In this document: positions 61,012 through 63,952 of the stretch, piece after piece | Position numbering within the stretch: position 1 is the first letter of the stretch | How the letters are laid out: each line of letters opens with the position of its first letter | DNA from: Methanohalophilus portucalensis | GTDB taxonomy: Archaea > Halobacteriota > Methanosarcinia > Methanosarcinales > Methanosarcinaceae | DNA length: 64,000 nt | NCBI RefSeq assembly: GCF_002761295.1 | Contig: NZ_CP017881.1 | Location: forward strand, 1,983,750 to 2,047,749 | Direction of reading: 5' to 3' | Notes under the pieces: generated by a model | Seen by the model: the letters and a program-made list of their open reading frames with translations, nothing else | What the model was told of the DNA's origin: nothing | Databases searched by the model: none | Made by a program: the position numbers and the translations under genes

Positions 61012-62160
61012 TTATTTTTTATTTTGAGATTGATTTACAACAGTATCCAGATCCGCAAGAAACATATCTATGATCTCATTATCCAGATGGGGCATGATAA
61101 CCAATCTTAATGCCTGTGGATTTCTCGTAAGAGAAACACGCCATCCAAAATCCTCGTAAAGTCTGTTTTGAATATCACCTGGTGACTCTACATCCAGCGC
61201 CACGATATTCATAACAGGTTCTATCACCGGCCGGATTCCTATATTCCTGGCTCCTGCAACAAGCCTTTCAGTCATATCCATACATCGTTGTACGATGGCA
61301 CCATAACCTTTTCTTCCAAGATGGCGCATAACTGCGTAAGTGGATACTACAGCTGCTCCACTACGGGTACCTGTCAGGGAATACTGACTGCTTATAGTAA
61401 GATAAGGTGTCTTTACCGCCAGATTGTCAAGATCAAGACTGTGGCGGAAAAGTAATCCTCCTGAAGGAATAGTACTTAGACCCATTTTGTGGGGATCTAT
61501 TGTTACAGAAGATACACCGGGAATTTCAAAATCAAATTTATATTTAGGTTTAAGGAAAGGCAGTACAAAACCCCCGAAAGCCGCATCTACGTGGAAAGGT
61601 AAACCATTTTCAATAGCTATGCCAGAAAGGGTTTCAAGAGGGTCTACCTGCCCAAACTCAGTAGTACCGGCTATACCCACCAATCCTATGGTATTACTAT
61701 CTATCAGGGAGTTAACTGCATCCGTATCCACCTGCAAATTATCAGAAAGAGCTGCTCTGCGTATATCTATACCTGAAAGATCACCAACTTTATCAAAAGA
61801 AAAATGAGCTGAATCAGGAACAACAATGTTAGGATTTACAATTGATCTATTACGATTACGCATAGCTCTTACGGCCTGGATATTTGATTCAGTGCCTCCT
61901 GTACTGATATAACCACAGGCATCCGGAAGATGCAACATGGCACCCAGCATTTCCATGACCTGTTCTTCCAGTTCAGATGTTCCCTGAAAAAGACCTGGGT
62001 CTCCCATATTAGCTTCGATGAAATTGCAATGGGCATGCTATGCTATTTCATGAGGATAGGTACACATGGAACTCAGAACTTTCCTGTAATCACTATCCCT
62101 GTTTTTTTTTTGAGATAATTCCTTTAGAACTGAATCTCTTGTGATGCCATTGCTATACAT
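61012..62160 (-). CDS. mfnA: L-tyrosine decarboxylase, with an in-frame TAG codon
   Basis: PLP enzyme that decarboxylates tyrosine to tyramine, the first dedicated step to methanofuran. Read through, the frame from ATG 62160 gives 382 residues, a normal family length. ATG 62160 has AAAAGGA six bases upstream. Residues 29-60 ([12 protein letters not shown], then TAG, then [20 protein letters not shown]) align with the family, so the TAG at 62038-62040 replaces a sense residue at position 41. The PLP lysine is in [11 protein letters not shown], and [10 protein letters not shown] is the conserved PLP aspartate. Without read-through only an internal ATG (62007) remains and the N-terminus would be lost. 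TAG is otherwise unused as stop in this window, so insertion of pyrrolysine is likely. Confidence 0.85.
62038..62040 (-). other. In-frame TAG (amber) codon in mfnA, candidate pyrrolysine
   Basis: Codon 41 of mfnA. Context on the minus strand: GCA-TAG-CAT. The frame continues without any further stop for 341 codons. Homologues should have a sense residue here in a solvent-exposed N-terminal helix. Confidence 0.7.
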
Positions 62161-62248
62161 GAGAATCCTTTTCCTAGAAGAGCTTTTTAATTATAATCGT
62201 TTTGAGTTATATTTGATTTTCAGATTTTTAAATTTCAGGAATTGCTAG

Positions 62249-62275
62249 AGGGGGACCCCATAGTTTCTATTGGAA
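62249..62275 (-). repeat. ORB-like origin repeat 1 (inverted)
   Basis: Plus strand GGGGGACCCCATAGTTTCTA; its complement has GAAACTATGGGGTCC, the origin-recognition core, facing the other three. Confidence 0.75.
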
Positions 62276-62400
62276 ACATAGTTCAATTTGAAAAAAGGGA
62301 TTTTTGTAAAACAAAGTTTTATATATTAAAACCTCTCTACTTACACTGCTATATTTTTTCAACATATTAAAAATATGTATTTCATATTTTTTCCTTATCT

Positions 62401-62427
62401 CCAGTTGAAACCATAGGGTCTCTCCCC
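62401..62427 (+). repeat. ORB-like origin repeat 2
   Basis: CAGTTGAAACCATAGGGTCT followed by CTCCCC. It has GAAAC then AGGGTC, one base from the others. Confidence 0.7.
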
Positions 62428-62438
62428 TTTATAAATGT

Positions 62439-62463
62439 TCCAAACGAAACAAAGGGGTCTACC
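62439..62463 (+). repeat. ORB-like origin repeat 3
   Basis: CCAAACGAAACAAAGGGGTC then TACC. It shares GAAACAAAGGGGTCT with repeat 4 exactly. Confidence 0.75.
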
Positions 62464-62522
62464 TTTTTTGTCGTTTTTTACATCTATAATTTTAATTGTA
62501 TCTTTTAAACTTACTTTATAAG

Positions 62523-62549
62523 TGCACTTGAAACAAAGGGGTCTTTACC
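62523..62549 (+). repeat. ORB-like origin repeat 4
   Basis: GCACTTGAAACAAAGGGGTC then TTTACC, 85 bases after repeat 3 and in the same orientation. Confidence 0.75.
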
Positions 62550-62716
62550 ATAACTGTTAAGAATAGATACCTATATTTCCATTAGAGTACTAACAGAGGA
62601 AAATTACGTCCTTTTGCATATACCAAATATTGCTAAGAGGAGGTACCCGCTTTGGTTTCAATCTACTAAAAAAACGATTATACGGTATTGTCATATTACA
62701 AATAGAAGGTGTTTGG

Positions 62717-63952
62717 ATGGATAATGGTTCACTTGATGGGTTATTTGAAGAGTTATTGGAGACAGAATCCCTTTTTAAGAATAAGGAAGTGTTGAGACCT
62801 GCGTATACACCGGAAAATCTTCCTCATCGTAGTAACCAGATAAATAATATTGCTACGGTACTGGTATCAGCTTTGAGGGGTCATACACCTTCTAATGTTC
62901 TCATTTATGGAAAAACAGGTACAGGTAAAACTGCTGTTGCTAGATATGTGGGTATTGAACTTGAAAGGAAAAGTGATCATCTCAATGTACAATGTAATGT
63001 GCTGTACATAAATTGCGAAGTAATAGATACACAGTATAGGTTATTGGCCAATCTTGCAAAACAATTCGGTGAAGATGTCCCTATGACAGGATGGCCTACA
63101 GATCAGGTCTTTTTCCGATTTAAAGAGGCAGTGGATTCCCGCAAACAGGTAATCATAATAATTCTTGATGAAATTGATAAATTGATAAAAAAAGGGGATG
63201 ATGTCCTCTATAATCTTTCCCGGATGAATACGGATCTTAAAAATGCCCGGGTAAGCATGATAGGTATTTCCAATGATCTGAAGTTCACTGAATTTCTGGA
63301 TCCACGTGTGAAAAGTTCTCTGGGAGAGGAGGAAATTATCTTTCCACCCTATGATGCCGAACAGATAAGTGATATTCTCAGGCAGCGTGCTGCTATTGCT
63401 TATAAGGAAAACAGTATGGATGACATGGTAATTCCTCTATGTTCTGCTTTTGCGGCACAGGAACACGGGGATGCACGGCGTGCTCTTGATCTTATGAGGG
63501 TTGCCGGGGAAATAGCCGAACGTGAGAAGAAGAATATTATCGAGGAAGAACACGTCAGGCAAGCCCAGGAAAAAATCGAAGTGGATCGTATAGTGGAAGT
63601 TATACGCACTCTTCCTACCCAATCCAAGCTCGCTCTCTATAGTGTGATGCTGCTGCGCAATAATGGCCACCGTAATGTGACAACGGGTGAGGTGTATAAC
63701 GTTTACAGACAGTTATGCCGCAATGTTGATACCGATATCCTGACCCAGAGAAGGGTCACCGATCTCATATCAGAGCTTGATATGCTGGGTATCCTCAATG
63801 CTATAGTCGTGAGCAAGGGCAGATATGGCCGTACCAAGGAAATCGTATTGAGTGTACCTGTGGAAAGTACCAAGAAAGTCTTGCTTGAAGATTATCGCCT
63901 CAATATGCTGGCCGATTTCAAACCGGTTCTGACAGCCCAGATGCATCTTTGA
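62717..63952 (+). CDS. orc1: Origin recognition ATPase Orc1/Cdc6
   Basis: Initiator of DNA replication, 411 residues from the ATG at 62717, which follows AAGGTG by six bases. The open frame begins at 62630, but those 29 residues are not family-like and cover the leader. AAA+ motifs: Walker A GKTGTGKTAV, Walker B IIIILDEIDKL, sensor 1 MIGISNDLKF and sensor 2 region HGDARRALDLMRVAGEIAE. The C-terminal winged helix (about 310-411) binds ORB DNA. The gene lies next to its own ORB repeats, as usual for archaeal Cdc6-linked origins. Confidence 0.96.
   Translation: MDNGSLDGLFEELLETESLFKNKEVLRPAYTPENLPHRSNQINNIATVLVSALRGHTPSNVLIYGKTGTGKTAVARYVGIELERKSDHLNVQCNVLYINCEVIDTQYRLLANLAKQFGEDVPMTGWPTDQVFFRFKEAVDSRKQVIIIILDEIDKLIKKGDDVLYNLSRMNTDLKNARVSMIGISNDLKFTEFLDPRVKSSLGEEEIIFPPYDAEQISDILRQRAAIAYKENSMDDMVIPLCSAFAAQEHGDARRALDLMRVAGEIAEREKKNIIEEEHVRQAQEKIEVDRIVEVIRTLPTQSKLALYSVMLLRNNGHRNVTTGEVYNVYRQLCRNVDTDILTQRRVTDLISELDMLGILNAIVVSKGRYGRTKEIVLSVPVESTKKVLLEDYRLNMLADFKPVLTAQMHL

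Follow-up and report, generated by a model that had tools for sequence, protein, structure and literature searches.

Where does replication of the Methanohalophilus portucalensis chromosome begin? In this study, a 64-kb stretch of its DNA (the window; positions 1,983,750–2,047,749 of the single 2,084,875-base contig) was analysed, and feature coordinates are counted in the window unless otherwise stated. The intergenic gap at 62161–62716, flanked by mfnA (minus strand) on the left and orc1/cdc6 (plus strand) on the right, was found to contain four origin recognition boxes (ORBs). Judged from its sequence, this gap very probably serves as the main origin of chromosome replication, and it is a typical representative of the Orc1/ORB class. 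An earlier note on this DNA had proposed the layout of a Cdc6-linked archaeal origin, with which the repeat sequence, the arrangement, the initiator neighbour and the order-wide conservation all agree. The kind of system is already known. A search of the open-access literature found no account of a Methanohalophilus origin (DoriC, outside that scope, may list such origins), and a term search of the accessible parts of two genome papers on the genus (PMC3017947 and PMC6491703) found no origin passage; the present work gives a base-pair map of a probable origin for this genus.

ORBs, AT-rich tract and initiator gene

The four repeats reported in the earlier note at 62249, 62401, 62439 and 62523 were all located, with 14-base cores at 62254–62267 (minus strand) and at 62407–62420, 62446–62459 and 62530–62543 (plus strand). 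Their consensus is GAAAC-N-A-N-(G/A)GGGTC; the version given earlier, GAAAC-x-A-x-x-GGGGTC, captured the shared repeat but was one letter too long and did not fit the copy at 62401, which has AGGGTC. Around each core, the full ORB consists of TCCA or TGCA, 3 bases, GAAAC, 3 bases and a G run. Searching the 2.08-Mb genome with the core GAAACNANNGGGTC at zero mismatches gave 4 copies, every one in the gap, and the reversed control pattern gave 2. With 1 mismatch allowed, the window contained 5 matches, whereas 100 shuffled versions averaged 1.02 and never exceeded 4. A looser pattern, TCCANNNGAAAYNANRGGG, had 6 sites in the genome, 3 in the gap and 3 isolated singles; ORB4 was missed by this pattern because its first element is TGCA.

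ORB1 (62249–62275, minus strand), the leftmost copy and the one distal from orc1, is inverted as had been noted, and an inverted ORB was also present upstream of ORB2 in 45 of the 47 distinct loci described below. It is parted from ORB2 (62400–62421, plus strand) by about 125 bp of AT-rich DNA (62276–62399), the A+T fraction of which was 0.73–0.80 in 60-base windows, in accordance with the earlier description. This tract, flanked by ORBs of opposite polarity, is a candidate DNA unwinding element. ORB3 (62439–62460) and ORB4 (62523–62544, proximal to orc1) follow on the plus strand; all four ORBs were found in both motif and matrix scans. No Rfam family was found in 61900–62900.

The neighbouring open reading frame (ORF) at 62717–63952 (plus strand, 411 amino acids), previously taken for orc1/cdc6, encodes an Orc1-type Cdc6 initiator. 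It matched the NCBIfam profile PRK00411.1-3 with 715.9 bits against a cut-off of 501, and its start at 62717 is preceded by what appears by eye to be a good ribosome site. Over nearly its whole length it matched the structures 2qby chain A (E = 4.8e-111) and 2v1u (E = 5.9e-106), which we take to be the crenarchaeal Sulfolobus Orc1-1 and Aeropyrum ORC1, respectively, both presumably solved on origin DNA. Orc1 was found in 39 of the 40 relatives searched. The closest named relatives of this genome are Methanohalophilus RSK, M. profundi and M. euhalobius, whose Orc1 proteins are 99–100% identical.

Orc1-upstream regions were gathered in two rounds (30 + 39), giving 69. An earlier ORB scan, with loci oriented by translation, gave 43 matches across 30 loci and none in the controls. 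An ORB matrix, trained on the same 69 regions, some of whose loci are duplicates, detected 242 sites in them and none in the reversed control. Eight duplicates were dropped; 47 distinct regions had an ORB pair 30–45 bp apart, and 14 had none. The boxes of this genome, which the earlier note expected to be species-specific, are indeed variants, but of a single motif that is shared across the order and arranged in a conserved layout. According to the sections consulted of PMC6742236 and PMC5333045, archaeal Orc1/Cdc6 origins such as Sulfolobus oriC1 and those of Pyrococcus have the same ORBs with a dyad and a G run, in opposite polarity across an AT-rich element and adjacent to the initiator gene.

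Strand asymmetry and alternative readings

Skew was calculated from ORFs called in 1.02 Mb of the M. portucalensis genome (G000) and in 0.80 Mb of a second species (G007), using fourfold-degenerate sites only and with gene-strand bias removed. In both genomes, the corrected plus-strand skew showed an A excess (over T) left of the ORB gap and a T excess (over A) on its right, and G over C went from mostly negative on the left to mostly positive on the right. The binned AT skew changed sign at 0 kb in both; the binned GC skew did so at 0 kb in G000, and in G007 no more than 50 kb away from that point. In G000 (491 genes) as in G007 (601 genes), the change point fell between two genes, those at −0.9 and +0.9 kb, which in G000 are the genes that flank the repeats. 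None of 2000 permutations was as extreme in either genome; the bootstrap range was −7.2 to +3.0 kb for G000 and −50.1 to +5.4 kb for G007. The minimum of the cumulative GC skew fell at the ORB site within the sampled range of −341 to +193 kb, and a leading-lagging test on a dense, uneven sample placed this site at rank 0 of 209 positions. In its strand-corrected form, the skew check suggested beforehand gave an inflection at the ORB gap in two species. A single origin has also been predicted from base composition in Methanosarcina mazei, a member of the same family (Zhang and Zhang 2002, as cited in the portions seen of PMC5333045 and PMC4164010). That prediction was made in silico by Z-curve, whereas the present one concerns another genus and combines the ORB layout with strand-corrected skew.

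Several observations weigh against a start of replication at the gap. The raw 20-kb GC skew was noisy in the sampled stretches, and the range used for the G000 change point (−340 to +400 kb) was picked after the bins had been seen. When G000 was sampled uniformly and its terminus taken to lie opposite, the site showed a nil leading-lagging difference (−0.0005); with the terminus left free, the best-fitting origins were at 160–200 kb.

It could be that the gap is one of several origins and that a second, perhaps linked to a second Orc/Cdc6 paralogue, is also used. A second orc gene is present in the genome at 1,265,417–1,266,523, isolated ORB-like sites occur elsewhere, and the skew of G000 switches once more near −350 kb. 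However, no ORBs were found near the paralogous gene (1.265 Mb), the isolated ORBs of this genome are single and unclustered, and G007 has no switch at −350 kb. Beyond that switch, the left arm of G000 from about −1000 to −350 kb (about 1.05–1.70 Mb) shows right-arm skew. In blastn comparisons between sampled stretches, the larger part of this block aligned unflipped with G007 at +140 to +640 kb, on the other arm, as a rearrangement would leave it, and the G000 right arm beyond +60 kb aligned with the left arm of G007 in inverted orientation. The large inversions between the two genomes are roughly symmetric about the ORB site, a pattern typical of an origin. The simplest reading is that the left-arm block reflects a rearrangement or an assembly error, recent enough that skew has not adjusted; the nil difference in the uniform sample would be due to this block, an explanation found after that result was obtained. 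A second origin at the −350 kb switch was rejected for now because G007 lacks the switch, and the use of several origins is considered unlikely.

The repeats might instead act mainly as Orc1 operators for its own promoter, and for that of mfnA, with replication beginning elsewhere. In keeping with this, several ORBs stand upstream of orc1, a TATA-like element (TTTATAAA, 62428–62435) is located between ORB2 and ORB3, and TTTATAAG lies ahead of ORB4 in this genome. The TATA-like element was found at +21 from the G of the ORB2 GAAAC in 39 of the 47 distinct regions and at offset 19 or 23 in four further regions; the pattern found none in the other four. It was retained where the left neighbour is not mfnA and converges on the origin (L072, L075, L076, L079 and L081, with L075 represented in the scan by its duplicate L017), and it therefore seems to be part of the origin and not of mfnA; the same loci weaken its candidacy as the mfnA promoter. 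The purine fraction of its upstream flank, part of which is ORB3 itself, was 0.15 in the orc1 direction and 0.68 leftward. The flank thus looks more like that of an archaeal promoter leftward than toward orc1, which does not point to an orc1 promoter there. With the skew switch at the ORB gap in two species also speaking against it, a mainly regulatory role for the repeats, with replication starting elsewhere, is very improbable, although Orc1 autoregulation may accompany origin function.

Spacing of ORB2 and ORB3 and the ORB4 tail

Among the 47 distinct loci, the ORB2–ORB3 spacing was 39 bp in 45, 40 bp in one and 32 bp in one. In the same loci, ORB3–ORB4 spacing ranged from 84 to 138 bp, with a single value of 314 bp and two loci without a call, and ORB1–ORB2 spacing from 133 to 418 bp, again with two loci without a call. 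A separate pattern search, permitting 6 to 36 bases between boxes, was made in 392 genomes of the phylum and matched 47, some of which were also among the 69 regions. Within the Methanosarcinaceae, 35 of 61 genomes matched, and all 36 places had 39 bp. The spacing was 32 and 40 in two genomes of the same order outside the family; in eight genomes from a different family of the class it was 29 (seven genomes) or 34 (one), and in two others 26 and 54. Genome G241 had three boxes with successive spacings of 39 bp each. The step from 29 to 39 is approximately one helical turn, which would be consistent with a phased arrangement.

ORB spacing is described as varying among genera in the part of PMC5333045 consulted; compared with known archaeal Orc1/Cdc6 origins, the distance here is kept at 39 bp across several genera of the family, with a TATA-like element inside. 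Paired ORBs of similar sequence near orc1/cdc6.1 have likewise been reported in Methanomassiliicoccales; in the text available from PMC4153887, the figure of 39 is an end-to-start distance between successive boxes (78–99 and 138–159), corresponding to 60 bp from start to start, unlike the 39 bp here. For Methanocella, the excerpt seen of PMC3146512 mentions a cluster of repeats upstream of cdc6 that has a mini-ORB-like sequence. In the open-access literature, to which subscription papers and DoriC do not belong, no account was found of a fixed 39-bp ORB pair or of fixed ORB spacing in Methanosarcinales.

Downstream of ORB4, a conserved tail was observed in the 45 loci with an ORB4 call, its elements standing in nearly fixed register: ACCA.AA in 43/45 (ACCATAA at 62547–62553 on the plus strand here), TTAATA in 38/45, TTCC..TG in 40/45 and TGGA in 36/45. 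Its end corresponds to a fifth site on the reverse strand (62576–62596 here), where CCAnnnGA, resembling the ORB dyad without its G run, was present in 32 of the 45 loci. A dyad without the G run is what defines a mini-ORB. The dyad is absent from this genome, and the half-site has decayed in Methanohalophilus. Of 25 genomes, one matched a strict joint pattern of the tail and seven contained the palindrome TTCCANTGNANCNNNTGGAA, in most cases distant from orc1; the tail is conserved in alignment but provides no genome-unique exact word. As separate observations, the DNA from ORB4 to orc1 (62544–62716) is nearly identical across five Methanohalophilus regions and the ORB3–ORB4 spacer diverges, and a half site resembling an ORB, interrupted by one inserted base, was spotted by eye at about 62642–62665 on the minus strand.

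In the part of PMC6742236 available, Orc1/Cdc6 is described as binding an ORB as a monomer with fixed polarity and bending or underwinding the DNA, and the minichromosome maintenance (MCM) helicase as being loaded between opposing ORBs. Because proteins of this type are known to behave in this way, similar roles can be suggested for the present boxes. Orc1 monomers would bind each ORB with fixed polarity; the opposed ORB1 and ORB2 would flank the AT-rich tract, where the duplex would open and two MCM helicases be loaded. ORB2 and ORB3, spaced at 39 bp around the TATA-like element and beside the AT-rich tract, could form a single platform in fixed register, where a pair of Orc1 molecules would together underwind or bend the DNA, and ORB4 with its tail may be an extra site or serve Orc1 control of its own gene.

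We tentatively propose, as a reading that is quite possible but somewhat short of probable, that most Methanosarcinaceae and some other members of the order share a fixed-geometry origin, in which ORB2 and ORB3 lie exactly 39 bp apart around the TATA-like element and ORB4 carries an ungapped tail of about 60 bp ending in an opposed half-ORB. The pair would be a two-Orc1 platform with strict helical register and a melting or bending TATA step, unlike the loose spacing reported for archaeal origins. Of the 14 regions without an ORB2–ORB3 pair, six have at most 357 nt of upstream DNA, while eight (L022–L027, L087 and L088) lack it despite at least 962 nt. These eight count against the origin model outlined above, and the platform is therefore not universal. 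The 39-bp spacing, conserved over several genera, is open to direct testing; if the register matters, it would show in what way archaeal Orc1 molecules act together, which the monomer-on-ORB structures, as presented in the pages seen of PMC6742236, do not settle.

Isolated ORB-like sites and the mfnA gene

Single ORB-like sites were observed at three other kinds of location. One lies upstream of hcp, encoding a hybrid-cluster protein, in four members of the genus (L112, at 526200 in this genome, L119, L120 and L121), and it is possibly an Orc1-bound regulatory or titration site. Another lies between the proteasome-activating nucleotidase gene and a divergent gene (L113, at 1411414 in this genome, and L130; also in G001). 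The third, located within the tyw1 gene and a few kb downstream of orc1, was found in six members of the genus (L114, at 1213–1246, L115–L118 and L129), and may reflect plain coding conservation.

The mfnA gene (tyrosine decarboxylase; 61012–62160, minus strand) has an in-frame TAG at codon 41 (62038–62040), with the family sequence intact on both sides. No account of this TAG was found in a literature search, and the portion available of a pyrrolysine prediction paper (PMC3639795) contained neither "decarboxylase" nor "mfnA". The TAG was present in 6 of the 8 Methanohalophilus genomes examined, the remaining two carrying an Ala codon, and pylS is present (367.9 bits). The TAG is probably a pyrrolysine codon, or else translation restarts at the ATG at 62007.
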